Of a stretch of 57,931 nt of DNA, positions 46,669 to 54,852 are shown in pieces (the stretch's first letter is position 1; every line of letters starts with the position of its first letter). Where the stretch lies: NCBI GenBank assembly GCA_040902655.1, contig JBBDWV010000062.1, positions 1 through 57,931 of the forward strand, read 5' to 3'. The position numbers and the translations under genes were made by a program. Under the pieces are notes generated by a model. It worked only from the letters and a program-made list of their open reading frames with translations. It ran no database searches and was not told the origin of the DNA. The stretch is from Mycobacteriales bacterium. GTDB lineage: Bacteria > Actinomycetota > Actinomycetes > Mycobacteriales > SCTD01.

Positions 46669-47571
46669 TCATGACCGGTGCGGGCCACCGGCGCTCAGAA
46701 AGTCCCAGACGGCCTGCGTCGCGTCCACCGCCCCGTTGACCGGGCCGAAGCCCGGGGCGAACCAGGTGTGGCCCCCGCCCTCGATCGTGATGAGCCGCAC
46801 CGCCGTGTCCTGCGAGCAACCGGTCCAGGTCATCGTGACGACCACCCCCTCGGGCACCGTCGTGGACTCCGGTGGGCACCCGTTGAGCTCGGCCCAGCGC
46901 CGCACCACCTCCGGCGCCGGCGGTGACGGCTGGGTGGCGCCGCCGGCGGTGGGCCCTCCCTCGTACGGCACGAGCTCGTCGACCGTGCCGTTGATCGCGA
47001 TCACCGACACCGGTTCCGACGGGCGGCAGTCGTCCAGGACCATCGACCCGGACACGGCGGCAACGCCGGCGATCCGTGCGGCGAGGTCGCAGCCCAGCCG
47101 GTGAGCCATGATCGCCCCGCCGGAGAAGCCGACGGCGAAGACGCGGGTGGGATCGATCTGCTCGACGGCCTCGACGTCGTCGAGCACCGCGTCGATGAAG
47201 GCGACGTCATCGGGTTGGGAGGTCGCTCCGTTGGGGCAGCAGTAGCCGCCGTTCCACGTCCTGTCGACTCCCTCGGGGTAGGCGACGACGATGTTCTCCT
47301 TCTCGGCCAGCCGGTCGAACTGCGTCACGCCCACCATCTGCTCCCCGGTGTTGCCGACGCCGGCCAGGACCAGCACCAGCGGCACCGGCGCCCGCCGGTC
47401 GAGGGTGGCCGGAGCGAACAGGCGGTAGGTCCGGGGCAGACCGTCGACCGTGAGCTGCTGCTGGCGCACCGAGGGGCCGGCCGGGGCTGCAGCGGGCTCG
47501 GAGCCTGTGCAGCCGGCCAGCAGGATAAGCGCCGCCAGCCCGAGGGCGATGTCGGCTCGGGCGCGGCGCAT
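46669..47571 (-). CDS. Lipoprotein esterase of the PHB depolymerase/LpqC type
   Basis: A 300-residue alpha/beta hydrolase with a lipobox LLAGC (Cys21). The nucleophile is in GFSGGA, the acid in NGTVDELVPY and the His in GGGHTW. A YCCPNG segment probably forms a disulfide near the active site. Related to mycobacterial LpqC and secreted feruloyl/PHB esterases; substrate unknown. Convergent with the anti-sigma gene, two bases apart. Confidence 0.85.
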   Translation of the reverse strand: MRRARADIALGLAALILLAGCTGSEPAAAPAGPSVRQQQLTVDGLPRTYRLFAPATLDRRAPVPLVLVLAGVGNTGEQMVGVTQFDRLAEKENIVVAYPEGVDRTWNGGYCCPNGATSQPDDVAFIDAVLDDVEAVEQIDPTRVFAVGFSGGAIMAHRLGCDLAARIAGVAAVSGSMVLDDCRPSEPVSVIAINGTVDELVPYEGGPTAGGATQPSPPAPEVVRRWAELNGCPPESTTVPEGVVVTMTWTGCSQDTAVRLITIEGGGHTWFAPGFGPVNGAVDATQAVWDFLSAGGPHRS

Positions 47572-47605: not shown

Positions 47606-48643
47606 CTACCGTCGCGGCGGTCCGGTCACGGTCGCGGCGGTCCGCGCGAAGACCTCCCGCACCTGTTCGGCCGCCAGTCCTGCTGCCAGGGCGAGGGACA
47701 GCAGGACGCGTGCCTTGACGCCGTCGAGGAAGCCGGCCGGGACGAGCCCCCGGCCGATCAGATCCTGCTCCGCCCCCGGAAAGCCGTAGGTGTCGGTCAG
47801 CACCTCGCCGGCGCCCGTGCGCGAGGCGAGGACGACCGGGATCGTGTGGGCCAGCCGCTCCAGCGCCGGGACCGTCCGGTGCGGCACATGGCCGCCACCG
47901 AAGGCCTGCACCACCAGACCGGCGTACCCGAGGGACAGCACCTGTTCGGCGAGGCGCCCGTCGTCCCCGAGCGACATCGTGAGCAGGGCGACCGGAGGGA
48001 CGGCTGCCCCCGGCAGCGGGGTGATCAACGGGAGCGGGGCCGGCCGGACGGCGATCCGGGGCCGCCCCTCGGTCAGCCAACCGAGCGGGCCCGTCGGCCC
48101 GGAGCGAAACGCGCCGGTGCTCGAGGTGTGCGTCTTGCGGACGAACCGGCTGCCGTGGATCTCGTCGTCGAGCACGACCAGGCAACCGAGTCCCGCAGCC
48201 TGCGGGCAGGCGGCGACCTGCACCGCCGCCAGGAGATTCGCGGGGCCGTCCGGGCCGGCGAGCGTGGGGTTGCGCATGGCGCCGGTGACGACGACCGGCC
48301 GCGACGGCGGCAGCAGGAGGTCCAGGGCGAACGCCGTCTCCTCGAGGGTGTCGGTGCCCTGGGTGACGACGACGCCGTCCGCCCCCGCCTCGACGCGTGC
48401 CGTCACCTCGGCAGCCAGCTCGACGAGGTCGGTCATCGTCAGGTCGCCCGACGGGCACTGGCGGAAGCTGACCGAATCCACCTCGGCGGCCTCCCGTACC
48501 GCGGGGACGGCGGCGACCAGGTCCGCCGCGGTCAGCCGTGGCGTCACGCCCCGGCCCTGCCCCTCGGCGGCGGCACGGGTCGACGCGATGGTCCCTCCGA
48601 GGGAGAGGACCACCACGCGGCGACGTCCGTCCTCGACCTGCAT
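47606..48643 (-). CDS. L-asparaginase (type I/II family)
   Basis: A 345-residue enzyme that hydrolyses asparagine. The first catalytic Thr is in LSLGGTIAST (Thr18) and the second in VVTQGTDTLEE; DGPANLLAAVQVA and GFGGGHVP-like AFGGGHVP follow. No signal peptide, so cytoplasmic. AGGAG six bases before the ATG at 48643. It is divergent from the reductase operon. Confidence 0.92.
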   Translation of the reverse strand: MQVEDGRRRVVVLSLGGTIASTRAAAEGQGRGVTPRLTAADLVAAVPAVREAAEVDSVSFRQCPSGDLTMTDLVELAAEVTARVEAGADGVVVTQGTDTLEETAFALDLLLPPSRPVVVTGAMRNPTLAGPDGPANLLAAVQVAACPQAAGLGCLVVLDDEIHGSRFVRKTHTSSTGAFRSGPTGPLGWLTEGRPRIAVRPAPLPLITPLPGAAVPPVALLTMSLGDDGRLAEQVLSLGYAGLVVQAFGGGHVPHRTVPALERLAHTIPVVLASRTGAGEVLTDTYGFPGAEQDLIGRGLVPAGFLDGVKARVLLSLALAAGLAAEQVREVFARTAATVTGPPRR

Positions 48644-48802: not shown

Positions 48803-51106
48803 ATGGCCGACCCTCGAGCCGCGGAGGCTGCGTGGCCCGGCGTCCGGGCGTCGCTCGCGGGGCGCCGGCTGCTGCTGACCGGATCCACCGGCTTCGTCGG
48901 TGAGGCGCTGCTCGAACGGGTGCTGTCGGACCTCCCGGACACCCGACTGGTGCTGCTGGTGCGCGGCCGGACCGGCATCAGCGCGTACGACCGGGTCCTG
49001 CAGCTGCTGGACAAACCGGCGTTCGCCGTCCTGCGTGAGCGCCTCGGCGGCGCCGGCATGACGCGCCTGCTCGACGAGCGGATCGAGGTGCTGGACGGTG
49101 ATCTCGCGCGCTGGCCGGCGCTGCCGGGCGACGTCGACGTCGTCGTGCACTGCGCCGGCGAGGTGTCCTTCGACCCGCCCGTCGACGAAGGCTTCGCAAC
49201 GAACGCCCTCGGTGTGGACGGGCTGCTCCGGGCCCTGCGCGACAGCGGCAGCCGTCCGCACGTCGTCCACGTCTCGACCGCCTACGTCAGCGCCGTGCAC
49301 CAGGGCCCGGTGCCCGAGGGACGGCTCGGGCACGACGTGGACTGGCGGGCGGAGGCGGCAGCGGCGGTGCGGCAGCGGGCGGCGGTCGAGGATGCCAGCC
49401 GGAGCCCGCACGAGCTGTCCCGGCGGCTCGCCGATGCCCGCAGTGAACTCGGTCGACAGGGTCCGCAGGCGGTGGCCGCCGACGCCGAGCGGCGCCGCCG
49501 GGACTGGGTCACCGAGCAGCTCGTGGCGGCCGGCCGCGAGCGGGCCCGCTCACTGGGTTTCACCGATTGCTACACCTTCACCAAGGCGATGGGTGAGCGG
49601 GTCGTCGAGGAGCTCGCCGCGGACCTGCCGGTCACCGTCGTCCGGCCGTCGATCATCGAGAGCGCCCTGCTGCGGCCCTATCCGGGGTGGATCGAGGGCT
49701 ACAAGATGGCCGAACCGATCATCCTCGCGTACGGCCGGGGCGTGCTGCCGGAGTTTCCCGGCGTGCCCGACGGCGTCGTGGACATCATCCCCGTCGACCT
49801 CGTGGTCTCCACGATGCTCGCGGCCGCCGCGCAGCCCCCGCCGGCGGGCGCACCTCGCTACCTGCACCTGTGCTCCGGCGCCCGGAACCCGCTGCTGTTC
49901 GCCGACCTGTTCCGGATCGTCCGCGACTACTTCCGCCGGCATCCGCTCGAGGCCCGCGGCCGGGGGACGATCGGCGTCCCCGACTGGCGGTTCCCCGGCA
50001 CCGGCCGGGTCGAGCGCCGGCTGCGCGCCGGCGAGCGTGCCGTCGACGTCGCGGACCGGGTGCTCGGTGTGCTGCCGCGCGGCAACCGGGTGCGCGGCGC
50101 GGCCCTCGCGGTGGACCGGCAGCGCGCGCAGCTGGAGTTCCTACGCCGGTACTTCGACCTCTACCGCGCCTACACCGGAGCCGAGGTCGTCTACCTCGAC
50201 GACAACGTCGCCGCGCTCGGGTCGCAGCTGCCACCCGAGGAGCGCGAACTGTTCGCCTTCGACCCGCGGCAGATCGACTGGGAGCACTACCTGGGTGAGG
50301 TGCACTGCCCGAGCATCACCGCGCTGGTGCGGACGATCACGGCGACGCCGAAGGGGCCGCGGAACCGGGTCGACACGGACCTGCCGTCCCAGGGCGAGCA
50401 CGGCGCGCAGCTGGTTGCCGTCTTCGACCTGGACGGCACGCTGCTGCCGTCCAACGTCGTCGAGTCCTACCTGCGGCTGCGGCTGGTCGGCCTCGCCACG
50501 CACGCCCGGACCCGCGAGCTCGCCGCGGCCGCACGCCAGCTGCCCGGTTGGCTGCTGACCGAGCGCCGCGACCGCGGGTCTTTCCTGCGCGACGTCTACC
50601 GGCAGTACGCCGGGGTCCCGCTGGCCGAGCTCGACGATCTGGTCGACCACGAGATCGGGCACGACCTGCTCGCCCGGGTCAGCGGCGCCGCCCTGCGCCG
50701 GGTCCGCGAGCACCGCGACGCCGGCCACCGGACCGTGCTCGTCACCGGCGCGATCACCGCGCTGACCCGCCCGTTCGCCCCGCTGTTCGACGACGTCGCC
50801 TCGGCTGTCCTGGAGGTCGACGGGTGCGGCTGCGCCACCGGGCGGCTCGCGCTGCCCCCGCTGGTCGGCGAGGCCCGGGCGACCTGGCTGCGCCGCTACG
50901 CCGCCGACCACGCGATCGACCTCACCGGCTCCTACGCCTACGCCGACTCGGCCAGCGACCTGCCGCTGCTGCGCGCCGTCGGACGGCCGGTCGCCGTGAA
51001 CCCCGACGCGACGACGCTGCGCGCCGCACACGCCGGTCGGTGGCCGGTGCAGGAGTGGCGGTCCTCGGGCCGTCCGGGGCGGCCGCTGGCCGGAGCCCGA
51101 TTATGA
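48803..51106 (+). CDS. Fatty acyl reductase-like (NAD_binding_4) protein fused to a HAD-IB phosphatase
   Basis: A 767-residue fusion. Residues 20-400 are an extended SDR/male-sterility-type reductase with TGSTGFVG (26-33) and the catalytic YxxxK (Tyr257, Lys261 in YTFTKAMGE). From about 535 a HAD-IB phosphatase begins: DLDGT (542-546), motif II VLVTGA, and DSASDLPLL (715-723). Such reductases convert acyl-CoA or acyl-thioester to aldehyde or alcohol; HAD-IB proteins remove phosphate. ATG at 48803 has no clear ribosome site, so the transcript may be leaderless. It leads a four-gene operon whose cistrons overlap. Confidence 0.88.
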   Translation: MADPRAAEAAWPGVRASLAGRRLLLTGSTGFVGEALLERVLSDLPDTRLVLLVRGRTGISAYDRVLQLLDKPAFAVLRERLGGAGMTRLLDERIEVLDGDLARWPALPGDVDVVVHCAGEVSFDPPVDEGFATNALGVDGLLRALRDSGSRPHVVHVSTAYVSAVHQGPVPEGRLGHDVDWRAEAAAAVRQRAAVEDASRSPHELSRRLADARSELGRQGPQAVAADAERRRRDWVTEQLVAAGRERARSLGFTDCYTFTKAMGERVVEELAADLPVTVVRPSIIESALLRPYPGWIEGYKMAEPIILAYGRGVLPEFPGVPDGVVDIIPVDLVVSTMLAAAAQPPPAGAPRYLHLCSGARNPLLFADLFRIVRDYFRRHPLEARGRGTIGVPDWRFPGTGRVERRLRAGERAVDVADRVLGVLPRGNRVRGAALAVDRQRAQLEFLRRYFDLYRAYTGAEVVYLDDNVAALGSQLPPEERELFAFDPRQIDWEHYLGEVHCPSITALVRTITATPKGPRNRVDTDLPSQGEHGAQLVAVFDLDGTLLPSNVVESYLRLRLVGLATHARTRELAAAARQLPGWLLTERRDRGSFLRDVYRQYAGVPLAELDDLVDHEIGHDLLARVSGAALRRVREHRDAGHRTVLVTGAITALTRPFAPLFDDVASAVLEVDGCGCATGRLALPPLVGEARATWLRRYAADHAIDLTGSYAYADSASDLPLLRAVGRPVAVNPDATTLRAAHAGRWPVQEWRSSGRPGRPLAGARL

Positions 51107-52347
51107 GCACCGGAGCGGGCGTGGGCACGGGTACGGGCACCGTGCGGTCGGTCGAGGTCTACCGGTCGGTCCCGCGATACCTCGCCACCCGCGTGCTGTC
51201 CACGGCGCTGCCGCGGGTGAGCAGCACGTCCGCGGCGCCGCTGCGACTCACCCGCGGCCGGGGCCCCCGGCGACCCGGCCCGCGCTGGGGACGGGTGCGG
51301 CCGCGGCTCGCCGGGATCTGCGGGTCGGACCTGTCGACGATCGCCGGGACCTCCTCGCTCTACTTCTCGCCGCTGGTCTCGCTGCCGTTCACGCCCGGCC
51401 ACGAGGTCGTCGGCGACCTGCTCGACGACGTCGAGGACCTGCCCGCCGGCACCCGCGTGGTCCTCGACCCGCTGCTGACCTGCATCCCCCGCGGGCTCGA
51501 CCCGTGCGGTGCGTGCCGCGACGGCTCCCGCGGCCGCTGCGACCGGATCACCGTGGGTCACCTGTCTCCCGGGCTGCAGACCGGCTTCTGCGCCGACACC
51601 GGCGGCGGCTGGAGCGACCGGCTGGTCGCGCACCGCAGCCAGCTGCACCCGGTGCCCGACGACCTGCCGGACGAGCGCGCCGTGCTGGTCGAGCCGCTCG
51701 CCTGCGCGATCCACACCGCGCTGCGGCTGGCGCCCCGGCAGGGCGACCACGTGCTCGTCGTCGGCGCCGGCGCCGTCGGGCTGTTCACGGTGCTGGCGCT
51801 GCGGGCCTTCACCCAGGCGGCCCGGGTCACCGTGGTCGCCAAGCACCCGCGGCAGGCCACGCTGGCGACCGCTCTCGGTGCGACGGATGTCGTGTCGCCG
51901 CGGGACGCGCTGACTGGCGTGCGGCGCAGCACCCGGGCGCTGCGGGTCCAGCCGGAGCAGGGCTCCGCGTACCTGCTCGGCGGGGTCGATGCGGCGGTCG
52001 ACTGCGCAGGCAGCCGGGCCGCGCTGGACACCGCGCTGCGGCTGACCCGCGCCGGCGGTCGCGTCGTGCTGAGCGCCATGCCGCCCGCCGGCGTCGACCT
52101 CTCGCCCGTGTGGTTCCGGGAGCTGGAGGTGGTCGGCTCCTATGCGACCGGGCAGGCGCGGGTCGAGGGCGACGAGCCGCGAAGTTCCTTCGACCTGGCG
52201 ATGGGACTGGCCCGTGACGCGCCGCTGGACGAGGTGGCGCAGAGCGGGTATCCCCTCGAGCGCTGGCGTGAGGCGCTCGAGCACGCGGGCAGTGCCGGCA
52301 GCCTCGGCACGGTGAAGGTGCACTTCGATCTCAGGGAGACCCGTTGA
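51103..52347 (+). CDS. Zinc-dependent alcohol dehydrogenase (MDR family)
   Basis: A 414-residue dehydrogenase. The catalytic zinc region has CGSD and GHE (His100-Glu101); structural zinc cysteines are in CGACRDGSRGRC; the NAD fold is VLVVGAGAVGLFTVLAL. The N-terminal 65 residues are longer and more basic than usual (GTVRSVEVYRSVPRY). ATG at 51103 overlaps the upstream stop (ATGA). It could oxidise or reduce a fatty alcohol or hydroxy acid made by its neighbours. Confidence 0.88.
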   Translation: MSTGAGVGTGTGTVRSVEVYRSVPRYLATRVLSTALPRVSSTSAAPLRLTRGRGPRRPGPRWGRVRPRLAGICGSDLSTIAGTSSLYFSPLVSLPFTPGHEVVGDLLDDVEDLPAGTRVVLDPLLTCIPRGLDPCGACRDGSRGRCDRITVGHLSPGLQTGFCADTGGGWSDRLVAHRSQLHPVPDDLPDERAVLVEPLACAIHTALRLAPRQGDHVLVVGAGAVGLFTVLALRAFTQAARVTVVAKHPRQATLATALGATDVVSPRDALTGVRRSTRALRVQPEQGSAYLLGGVDAAVDCAGSRAALDTALRLTRAGGRVVLSAMPPAGVDLSPVWFRELEVVGSYATGQARVEGDEPRSSFDLAMGLARDAPLDEVAQSGYPLERWREALEHAGSAGSLGTVKVHFDLRETR

Positions 52348-53921
52348 CCCGGCCAGGATTCGTGCTCGAGGTCGACGAGCGCACGCCGCCGCTGCTCGTC
52401 CACGAGGGCGAGAAGGTCCGACTGGAGACCTTCCCGCTGGGGACGCGGGTCGTCTACCCGCCCGAGTCGCTGCCGGGCCTGCACGACGTCGACGGCGCGA
52501 TCCGCTCCGCGCTGCTGGACCCGCACGGCAGCGATCCGTTGCCGACGCTGCTGTGGCCCGGCATGCGACTGACGATCGCCTTCGACGACATCTCGCTGCC
52601 GCTGCCGCCGATGCAGACCCCCGACGTCCGGCAGCGCATCGTCGAGGCTGTCCTGACGATGGCCGCGGCGGCAGGAGTCGACGACGTGCAGCTGGTGGCG
52701 GCCAACGCGCTGCACCGGCGGATGACGCCGGCCGAGCTACGCCGCTGCCTCGGGGAGCGGATCTTCCGCTCCTTCTTCCCCGACGCGCTGACCAACCACG
52801 ACGCCGAGGACCGCGACAACCTGCTGCACCTCGGAACGACGGACCACGGCGAGGACGTCGAGATCAACCGGCGCGCCGCCGAATCCGACCTGCTCGTCTA
52901 CGTGAACATCAACCTGGTCGCGATGGACGGCGGTCACAAGTCGGTCCCGATCGGCCTCGCCTCCTACAAGAGCCTGCGACACCACCACAACACGCACACG
53001 ATGCTGCACAGCAAGAGCTACATGGACCCGCCGAGGTCGGCGCTGCACGGCTCCGCCGCGCGGATGGGTGTGCTCGTCAACGAGCACGTGAAGATCTTCC
53101 ACATCGAGACGACGCTCAACAACGACGCCTTCCCCTCGCCGTACCGCTTCCTGACCCGCCGCGAGTGGGAGTGGTCGGCCAAGGACCAGGCGACCATGCT
53201 CGCCGTCAAGCGCGGCCTCGATCTCGCCCCGGCACGGGTACGGAGCCGCATCTTCCGCTCGATGGAGGCGCCGTACGGCGTGACGTCGGTGCAGGCGGGC
53301 GCGACCGACCCGGTGCACGAACTGACGCTGCAGAACGTGCACCGCCAGCAGCTGGTCGAGGTGCAGGGGCAGAGCGACGTGCTGGTCGTCGGCGTGCCCT
53401 ACGTCGGGCCGTACAACGTCAACAGCACGCTCAACCCGATCCTGGCGATGTGCCTGGGGATGGGCTACTTCTTCAACATGTACCGCGGCCGCCCACTGGT
53501 GCGGCCCGGCGGCGCGATGATCCTCTACCACCCGGTGCCGTGGGAGTTCTCGCAGCTGCACCACCCCAGCTACGTGGATTTCTTCGAGGAGGTGCTCGCC
53601 GAGTCGACGGACCCGGCGACCATCGAGAAGAAGTTCGAGCAGCAGTACGCGACCGACCCCTGGTACATCCACCTCTACCGGACGTCGTACGCCTACCACG
53701 GCGTCCACCCGTTCTACATGTGGTACTGGGGCGCCCACGCCATGGACCACCTCGGCGACGTGATCTGGGTCGGCGCCGATCCGCGCACCGTCGAGCGGAT
53801 GGGCTTCCGGTCGGCGTCCACCCTGCAGGACGCGCTCCAGATGGCGAGCGGGACGGTCGGGCAGTCGCCCTCGATCACCTACCTGCACTCACCGCCGTTC
53901 GCCCTCGCGGACGTACGGTGA
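52344..53921 (+). CDS. LarA-like (DUF2088) nickel-pincer-type racemase homologue
   Basis: A 525-residue protein. DDISLP (81-86) corresponds to the DDxxRP loop of LarA with Arg replaced by Leu. HRRMT (124-128), NHDAEDRDN (151-159), the GGHKSVPIG segment with Lys199 (the lysine that binds the pincer cofactor in LarA) and HHHN (213-216) are kept. LarA racemises lactate; relatives act on other 2-hydroxy acids. It starts with TTG at 52344 overlapping the upstream stop (TTGA). The C-terminal 200 residues are rich in aromatic residues. No larB/C/E genes for cofactor synthesis are in the window. Confidence 0.85.
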   Translation: MTRPGFVLEVDERTPPLLVHEGEKVRLETFPLGTRVVYPPESLPGLHDVDGAIRSALLDPHGSDPLPTLLWPGMRLTIAFDDISLPLPPMQTPDVRQRIVEAVLTMAAAAGVDDVQLVAANALHRRMTPAELRRCLGERIFRSFFPDALTNHDAEDRDNLLHLGTTDHGEDVEINRRAAESDLLVYVNINLVAMDGGHKSVPIGLASYKSLRHHHNTHTMLHSKSYMDPPRSALHGSAARMGVLVNEHVKIFHIETTLNNDAFPSPYRFLTRREWEWSAKDQATMLAVKRGLDLAPARVRSRIFRSMEAPYGVTSVQAGATDPVHELTLQNVHRQQLVEVQGQSDVLVVGVPYVGPYNVNSTLNPILAMCLGMGYFFNMYRGRPLVRPGGAMILYHPVPWEFSQLHHPSYVDFFEEVLAESTDPATIEKKFEQQYATDPWYIHLYRTSYAYHGVHPFYMWYWGAHAMDHLGDVIWVGADPRTVERMGFRSASTLQDALQMASGTVGQSPSITYLHSPPFALADVR

Positions 53922-53928
53922 TGCCGTC

Positions 53929-54852
53929 GTGAGCCTGCGCAGGGACGTACGCGACGTGTCGCGCGGCTGGCGCTGGGGCCGGACGCAGTTGGTGCCTGCG
54001 TCGGCCGAGCCGCACCGACCGGCGCCGGTGTCCCGGGCGTTCCCGACGGCGTGGGCGCGTACGCCGGCTGCCGTCGCGCTGCGCGGCGCGGTGCAGCGCT
54101 TCGGGCTGCGGCCTCTGGTGCACTCGCAGGTGGCCGTCGAGGTGAACGGGCGCGAGGCGCTCGACGCGCTGCGCGGCCCGGTCGTCTTCGTGGCCAACCA
54201 CTGCTCGCACCTCGACGCGCCGCTGGTCCTGACGACGCTTCCCGAGCGCTGGCGCCGGAACACCGTGGTCGCGGCCGCCGCCGACTACTTCTTCGACACC
54301 TGGCCCCGGGCGGTCGGCTCCACGATGGCCTTCTCGACCTTCCCGATCGAACGGCGGGGTGGCGACAGCGGCTCACAGGCAGTCGATCTGCTGTTCACGG
54401 GCTGGAGTGTGCTGGTCTTTCCCGAGGGCACCAGGTCGGCGGACGGGTGGACGGGGGAGTTCCGCCTCGGTGCGGCCCGGCTGGCACTGGACGCGGGTGT
54501 GCCCGTCGTGCCGGTGGCGATCCGCGGCTCCTTCCCCGCCATGCCGAGGGGGCGGTCGTGGCCGGTGCCCGGCCGGCGTCCGGTGCGGGTGCGCTACGGA
54601 ATGCCGGTGCATCCCGTACGGGGGGAGGACCCGGCGCTGCTCACCGAACGGCTACGGGGGGAGGTTGCACGGCTGCTCGACGAGGACGCGACGGACTGGT
54701 ACGGCGCGCTGCGCCGCAGTGCCGAGGGCGCGACGCCGTCCCCCGCCGGGCCGGAGGCGTCGCGCTGGCGGCGGGTGTGGGCGGCGACGGAGCCGCTGGA
54801 GGTGGACCGGGTGGCGGCTCGACGCTCGCCGTGGCGGTCGGGGCGCAGGTAA
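53929..54852 (+). CDS. 1-acyl-sn-glycerol-3-phosphate acyltransferase-like protein (PlsC family)
   Basis: A 307-residue acyltransferase. The catalytic H-x4-D is NHCSHLD (His91, Asp96); TFPIERRGG is block II and VFPEGTRS (163-170) block III; VPVVPVAIRG is block IV. The N-terminal 60 residues are basic and unrelated to typical PlsC. GTG at 53929 is eight bases after the LarA-like stop. As last gene of the operon it suggests the final product is an acylated glycerol-type or similar lipid. Confidence 0.9.
   Translation: MSLRRDVRDVSRGWRWGRTQLVPASAEPHRPAPVSRAFPTAWARTPAAVALRGAVQRFGLRPLVHSQVAVEVNGREALDALRGPVVFVANHCSHLDAPLVLTTLPERWRRNTVVAAAADYFFDTWPRAVGSTMAFSTFPIERRGGDSGSQAVDLLFTGWSVLVFPEGTRSADGWTGEFRLGAARLALDAGVPVVPVAIRGSFPAMPRGRSWPVPGRRPVRVRYGMPVHPVRGEDPALLTERLRGEVARLLDEDATDWYGALRRSAEGATPSPAGPEASRWRRVWAATEPLEVDRVAARRSPWRSGRR

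Follow-up and report, generated by a model that had tools for sequence, protein, structure and literature searches.

What would a fatty acyl reductase-phosphatase fusion, a zinc dehydrogenase, a LarA-like protein and a PlsC-like acyltransferase make together? These four genes form an operon at positions 48803 to 54852 of contig JBBDWV010000062.1 (assembly GCA_040902655.1, a Mycobacteriales bacterium), a stretch of 57,931 nucleotides that we call the window. We consider it likely that the operon makes 1-O-alkyl (ether) glycerolipids, and that the LarA-like protein, a nickel-pincer-nucleotide (NPN) enzyme, replaces alkyl-dihydroxyacetone-phosphate (alkyl-DHAP) synthase, hereafter AGPS, in a step whose chemistry we infer. 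An ether-type lipid had been a guess in the first-pass annotation of this DNA; it is now the best-supported reading, based on the exchange between the LarA-like protein and AGPS, the operons of the AGPS type, the tree of the reductase fusion and the occurrence of the genes in Rubrobacter. The operon is laid out as follows.

48803..51106, plus strand: fatty acyl reductase-HAD phosphatase fusion ("the fusion"), 767 aa; Pfam NAD_binding_4 (7.7e-46), Sterile and HAD (2.2e-30)
51103..52347, plus strand: zinc-dependent dehydrogenase of the medium-chain dehydrogenase/reductase (MDR) type (ADH), 414 aa; Pfam ADH_N and ADH_zinc_N
52344..53921, plus strand: LarA-like NPN enzyme, LarAH14/15/16 ("LarAH"), 525 aa, TTG start; Lar_N, NF052592
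53929..54852, plus strand: PlsC-like acyltransferase, 307 aa, GTG start; Pfam PF01553 (6.4e-23)

The first-pass annotation had placed the four genes at these coordinates, and the Pfam matches agree with the families it named. Both overlaps that it described are present (ATGA between fusion and ADH, 51103-51106; TTGA between ADH and LarA-like gene, 52344-52347), whereas the gap before the PlsC-like gene, given as eight bases, is seven (53922-53928). For the LarA-like gene, a start at TTG agrees with the consensus N-terminus of its relatives, M-S-R-P-G.

Conservation of the operon and exchange with AGPS

A scan for the LarA-like protein, with one genome per species, returned at least 552 relatives, and the best 80 named loci were analyzed. 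Of these, 73 show the reductase, 74 the HAD domain, 77 the ADH and 77 the PlsC-like gene, with order and strand identical in all 80. The missing partners are all at contig ends, bar one PlsC gene at a locus where part of the downstream sequence cannot be read. The hosts include Frankia, Kribbella, Nocardioides, Actinomadura, Actinopolymorpha, Streptomyces, Phytohabitans and Nitriliruptorales. Outside the class, the fusion was found in 84 of 366 genomes searched, and 60 of the loci were read. LarAH is linked to the fusion at 52 of them; at five the contig ends first (L183, L186, L187, L196, L206), and at three (L215, L216, L221) no LarAH was seen in the locus stretch, to which the search was confined. 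At one of the contig-cut loci, L196, a gene distantly resembling AGPS (34% identity) lies roughly 4.4 kb away from the fusion. The 52 linked loci all share order and strand, with an ADH in 51 and a PlsC gene in 36; the 16 without PlsC comprise 11 loci of family f59, four at contig ends and one that is partly unreadable. The genes are not scattered but linked across Actinomycetota, and their conserved order and co-occurrence support the first-pass view that they serve one pathway. That annotation knew of no pathway with this set, and we found none in open-licence papers. Ordinary linkage by descent was considered and rejected, because many different families contain the operon and because the parallel replacement described below argues for function.

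For the genome counts, one genome per species was sampled evenly across the class or the phylum and searched with E-value limits of 1e-100 for LarAH, 1e-50 (class) or 1e-80 (phylum) for the fusion, 1e-60 for AGPS and 1e-30 for LarB. A close AGPS was one scoring at least 612 bits, the next score being 388, a split that was set after the gap had been seen. Among 394 class genomes, 77 carry the fusion, 46 an intact LarAH14-type protein and 36 a close AGPS. Of the 77 fusion genomes, 45 have intact LarAH only, 32 have close AGPS only, and none has both or neither (Fisher p 2e-22, relatedness not being corrected for). The 32 without intact LarAH consist of nine genomes of a Frankia clade (g44) and 23 others, and the loci of 15 of these 23 were read. 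At 13 (L135-L142, L144-L147, L150), a short-chain dehydrogenase/reductase (SDR), a PlsC relative and a protein with FAD_binding_4 and FAD-oxidase_C domains stand beside the fusion. This FAD protein is an alkyl-DHAP synthase homologue, matching the structures 2uuu at 6.3e-108 and 4bby at 6.4e-87, with other flavoproteins at 1.5e-20 at best. Six of the loci (L136-L138, L145-L147) keep the order fusion, SDR, PlsC, AGPS on one strand; at L139-L142, L144 and L150, the SDR, PlsC and AGPS genes are divergent beside the fusion, and L135 has another arrangement. As for the other two genomes, G211 has the fusion alone (L143) and an AGPS-PlsC-SDR cluster elsewhere (L155), and G209 has fusion and SDR near the end of one contig and AGPS near the end of another (L157, L158). 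Judged by sequence, the components of animal ether-lipid synthesis thus sit side by side at the 13 AGPS-type loci, and the MDR-type ADH of the window appears to occupy the operon slot of their SDR. In the genome of the window itself, no AGPS-like protein was found at E<=1e-60; its two FAD-oxidase_C proteins match AGPS at 1e-18 and 6e-7 only.

The Frankia clade g44 retains the operon in a decayed form. Its LarA-like proteins have lost the NPN lysine (Gly or Ala in 9/9) and N188 (9/9), five of the nine have also lost the first catalytic His, and the zinc ligands C73 and H100 of the ADH are lost in all seven sequences aligned there. The catalytic residues of the other enzymes are intact in every sequence aligned (reductase 8, HAD 8, PlsC 7). 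A close AGPS is encoded elsewhere in each of the nine genomes whose LarA-like protein is degenerate, and none of the five such AGPS loci read (L151-L154, L156) has an operon gene alongside. LarB was absent at E<=1e-30 from 12 of 13 g44 members, with a partial match of 2e-31 in G162. The degenerate LarA-like and ADH genes are kept in otherwise intact operons (L119-L125, L148, L149), and these LarA-like proteins remain 46-57% identical to that of the window over its length, as if kept for a structural role.

Trees of the fusion were made for the class, for the wider phylum (where row L184 sits on a long branch) and, by a careful search with 200 bootstraps, for 39 rows that we chose from the loci read. 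The fusion tree requires three switches between LarA-type and AGPS-type operons (5-95% range over the 200 bootstrap trees, 3-3). When it is rooted on the Rubrobacter family, whose outside position is not proven, the LarA type stands at the base and all AGPS lineages fall inside it. We are somewhat inclined to think that an NPN enzyme forms the glycerol ether bond, so that a nickel organometallic cofactor carries out non-isomerase chemistry in the synthesis of membrane lipids, and that on this tree it is the older state in Actinomycetota, displaced by flavin-dependent AGPS at least three times.

Rubrobacter provides an indirect link to lipids. One genome of family f59, G463, is Rubrobacter indicoceani, since its contig 2 matches the plasmid record at 100% with identical coordinates. 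This and other f59 genomes carry the fusion, the ADH and LarAH (853.6 bits on NF052592 in G463), and other genes can intervene between the ADH and LarAH. In a search of plasmid records with locus L209, the reductase matched no Rubrobacter plasmid (the best match was a Streptomyces plasmid, 1e-66), and the LarA-like protein weakly matched the LarA gene on the R. indicoceani plasmid (1e-6). At another f59 locus, which has only the reductase-HAD gene, the upstream gene (L221:6390-7067) looks plsY-like by eye. The title of a 2023 paper by Sinninghe Damsté and colleagues (Syst Appl Microbiol 46:126404), cited in PMC11150832 and PMC11129491, describes mixed ether/ester lipids as dominant in Rubrobacterales. 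These authors reportedly described 1-O-alkyl glycerol ethers, along with a putative operon for 1-O-alkyl glycerol phosphate that is perhaps this set. Should that operon be the one analyzed here, the ether-lipid assignment would in part have been made before.

The LarA-like protein and its partners

The LarA-like protein scores 922.8 bits against NF052592 (LarAH14/15/16; cut-off 740) and is thus a member of this family. In a fold search with its AlphaFold model (mean predicted local distance difference test score, pLDDT, 92.4), only LarA-family structures had clear scores among the matches listed. The best match was 9q3k (Z 40.3; root-mean-square deviation 2.5 over 451 residues; 25% sequence identity), followed by 9q3j (Z 36.5; 23%) and then by other LarA structures. 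Residues were then mapped by profile alignment to solved LarA. K199 corresponds to the NPN lysine, H215 to the nickel ligand and H124 to the first catalytic His (H108 of LarA), whereas the position of the second, H174, is not His; its likeliest counterpart is the invariant N188, which lies 11 residues ahead of K199, the second His of LarA lying 10 ahead. Arg75 of LarA, which binds the substrate carboxylate and the NPN phosphate, is Leu85 here. K199, H215, H124 and N188 are all constant in 87/87 and 52/52 relatives in two alignments (Frankia g44 being counted apart from the 87), and position 85 is Leu, Ile or Val in 87/87 and Leu, Ile or Cys in 52/52, never Arg.

Given the loss of the second catalytic His and of the carboxylate Arg, an ordinary hydroxy-acid racemase is unlikely. 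According to the excerpt of PMC7583248, Frankia LarAH14 showed none of seven isomerase activities tested, and LarA homologues without H174 or K298 may run another hydride-mediated reaction. The excerpt of PMC12611868 reports that LarAH groups 14 and 15 lack H174, and describes single-histidine LarA proteins, one of them with NPN and an unidentified, apparently covalent ligand. The first-pass description "hydroxy-acid racemase-like" therefore holds for the fold alone, and racemase as the first-choice function was rejected on the residues and these negative assays. The NCBIfam name of NF052592, "hydroxyacid isomerase", is likewise not supported by residues or gene context.

Genes for the NPN cofactor accompany the protein. 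The first-pass annotation had proposed looking for larB, larC and larE, and all three are in this genome, larB and larC adjacent and larE elsewhere; the LarA-like protein is the sole Lar_N protein found in it. LarB occurs in 43/46 genomes with intact LarAH and in 44/348 others. Families resembling larB, larE and larC also recur as operon neighbours, in 14, 11 and 7 of the 80 loci, although the larB-like representative, at 165.8 bits, is slightly below the cut-off of 175.

The partner enzymes also keep their active-site residues. The fusion matches the fatty acyl-CoA reductase 7eoz (E 1.2e-53, residues 11-506, PDB sequence search) and carries a reductase glycine motif, Y257 and K261, which we take to be the YxxxK of the reductase, and DxDGT, presumably the HAD nucleophile motif; all are conserved in relatives. 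By its sequence, the fusion is predicted to be an alcohol-forming fatty acyl reductase of the kind that a FAR/AGPS pathway needs. In the HAD domain (about 50417-50974), 22/79 relatives have Glu in place of the second Asp of the nucleophile motif, and the fusion has Arg at a motif position that is often Lys in HAD enzymes. The ADH has C73, H100, E101 and E197, which we assume to form the catalytic zinc site (C73 and H100 with E101 and E197), and four Cys, by the same assumption the structural zinc site; these ligands are invariant where aligned outside Frankia clade g44. The PlsC-like protein has the HX4D (H91, D96) and PEGTRS motifs, also conserved in relatives.

No fifth conserved pathway gene was found within 6.5 kb, the top neighbour families reaching at most 14/80 loci with one representative scanned per family. 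An AMP-binding acyl-CoA ligase, a possible supplier of acyl-CoA, is near the operon in 12/80 loci (L098:3326-5002 and relatives). A Pfam-less protein with ferritin-like ExxH motifs, recognized by eye, occurs twice in one AGPS-type operon (L140:6993-7808, L140:10059-10913). Several AGPS-type operons have it next to the reductase-HAD gene, and it is also found close to several operons of the LarA type; 17 loci match, and relatives occur at L091, L097, L100, L107, L108, L110, L112 and L132, among others. One may speculate that it modifies the alkyl chain, for example as a plasmalogen-type desaturase. In the window, an asparaginase gene (47606-48643) and a PHB-depolymerase-like esterase gene (46669-47571) lie upstream on the minus strand, divergent from the operon, and neither is among its frequent neighbours in other loci.

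Proposed pathway and rival explanations

In the pathway that we propose, the reductase would convert an acyl thioester to a fatty alcohol, and the PlsC-like enzyme would acylate either glycerone phosphate or a lyso form of the intermediate. With its covalent NPN, the LarA-like enzyme would then swap the C1 acyl ester for the fatty alcohol to give the ether bond, as AGPS does. The zinc dehydrogenase may carry out the redox step between C2 ketone and alcohol that falls to the SDR in AGPS-type operons, and the HAD domain may take off the phosphate. In AGPS, flavin N5 holds the substrate. Ring carbon C4 of NPN could likewise act as an electrophile holding it; by a second possible route, C4 would briefly accept a hydride from C2 and so make the C1 substituent exchangeable. 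The analysis establishes the gene set and its linkage, the cofactor genes, the residues kept or lost, the division of genomes between LarAH and AGPS, and the repeated replacement. We infer the substrates and the order of steps, as well as the formation of the ether bond by LarA itself, the latter from the replacement, the gene content and the shared decay.

Several observations weigh against this proposal. We know of no precedent for ether formation by NPN, and the boundary of the close-AGPS tier was drawn with the scores in view. Outside the 77 fusion genomes, LarAH occurs without the fusion in G152, and close AGPS without it in four draft g44 genomes (fragmented assemblies). A search of 13 g44 genomes at E<=1e-40 turned up no close SDR, and the g44 ADH is dead too, so that it is unsure how ADH and LarA divide their roles. 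In f59 loci, the neighbourhood of the operon showed no PlsC relative. In addition, a distant AGPS-family protein (at most 388 bits) is present in 36/46 genomes with intact LarAH. Four such proteins that were examined keep AGPS-like motifs, and one matches 2uuu at 6.6e-81, so that AGPS-like chemistry is possible in many LarA-type genomes. The distant tier alone, irrespective of the fusion, occurs in 166/394 class genomes (35-39% identity in the four read, L159-L162).

These distant proteins suggest an alternative in which ether lipids are made, a distant AGPS forms the bond, and LarA and ADH act beside the ether step, for example by supplying or inverting a glycerol-phosphate backbone. The joint decay of ADH and LarA in Frankia g44, which suggests a joint function, would fit this as well. 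However, a distant AGPS-like protein is also common where both the fusion and close AGPS are missing (130/313 genomes), and none of the 394 genomes combines intact LarAH with close AGPS. Moreover, 10/46 LarAH genomes have no AGPS-like protein at E<=1e-60, among them four estimated to be 100% complete (G063, G158, G164, G380) and the present genome, which the alternative therefore does not fit. We regard it as unlikely, although it deserves to be kept in mind.

We also considered that LarA might racemize or epimerize alpha-hydroxy acids, with a hydroxylated lipid (2-hydroxyacyl or 1,2-diol) as the product of the operon. The superfamily fold, the NPN-site residues and the NCBIfam name favour this, whereas the replacement of H174 and R75 throughout the relatives and the inactivity of Frankia LarAH14 speak against it. 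It also leaves the exchange with AGPS unexplained, and we hold it to be improbable. Wax esters, or another fatty-alcohol ester, would call for the same kinds of parts, a fatty acyl reductase and an acyltransferase, and the switch to AGPS would then be an unrelated change of lipid class. Given that the same fusion and a PlsC relative persist in AGPS-type operons, that three parallel switches took place, and that an ether/ester lipid report exists for Rubrobacterales, this has the least probability of all, and we give it very little weight.

Significance and comparison with known systems

If ether-lipid synthesis with an NPN enzyme is correct, orphan LarA homologues without the second catalytic His gain a function, and NPN gains its first role, as far as we know, outside hydroxy-acid isomerization. 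It would also explain how many actinobacteria, including the ether-rich Rubrobacter, could build ether lipids, and bacterial ether-bond formation would become testable by a gene swap of LarA-like protein and ADH against AGPS and SDR.

The closest solved relatives are the single-His LarA proteins of Streptococcus plurextorum and Blautia wexlerae (9q3k, 9q3j), in which, according to the excerpt of PMC12611868, the second His is Asn and the carboxylate Arg is Lys; NPN was seen in the S. plurextorum protein. Their genes lie in a sugar-metabolism context, whereas the LarA-like gene of the window lies in a lipid context.

Among bacterial ether-lipid systems, the myxobacterial operons described in the excerpt of PMC9131029 contain FAR, acyltransferase, HAD, SDR and AGPS parts. 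The elb and MXAN_1676-1674 operons of Myxococcus xanthus share with ours the FAR-like, acyltransferase and dehydrogenase parts; elbB is a HAD-type hydrolase and MXAN_1676 is AGPS. However, the excerpt names no LarA-like protein or MDR-type ADH, the domain fusions differ, and elbC has no assigned function there. The animal, peroxisomal pathway (FAR1, GNPAT, AGPS and acyl/alkyl-DHAP reductase; same excerpt) has a reductase, a PlsC-family acyltransferase and a dehydrogenase in common with the operon. A true AGPS homologue and an SDR are found in the sister operon of the AGPS type, whereas in the LarA type their places are taken by an NPN enzyme and a zinc dehydrogenase of the MDR type, and the reductase is fused to a HAD phosphatase.

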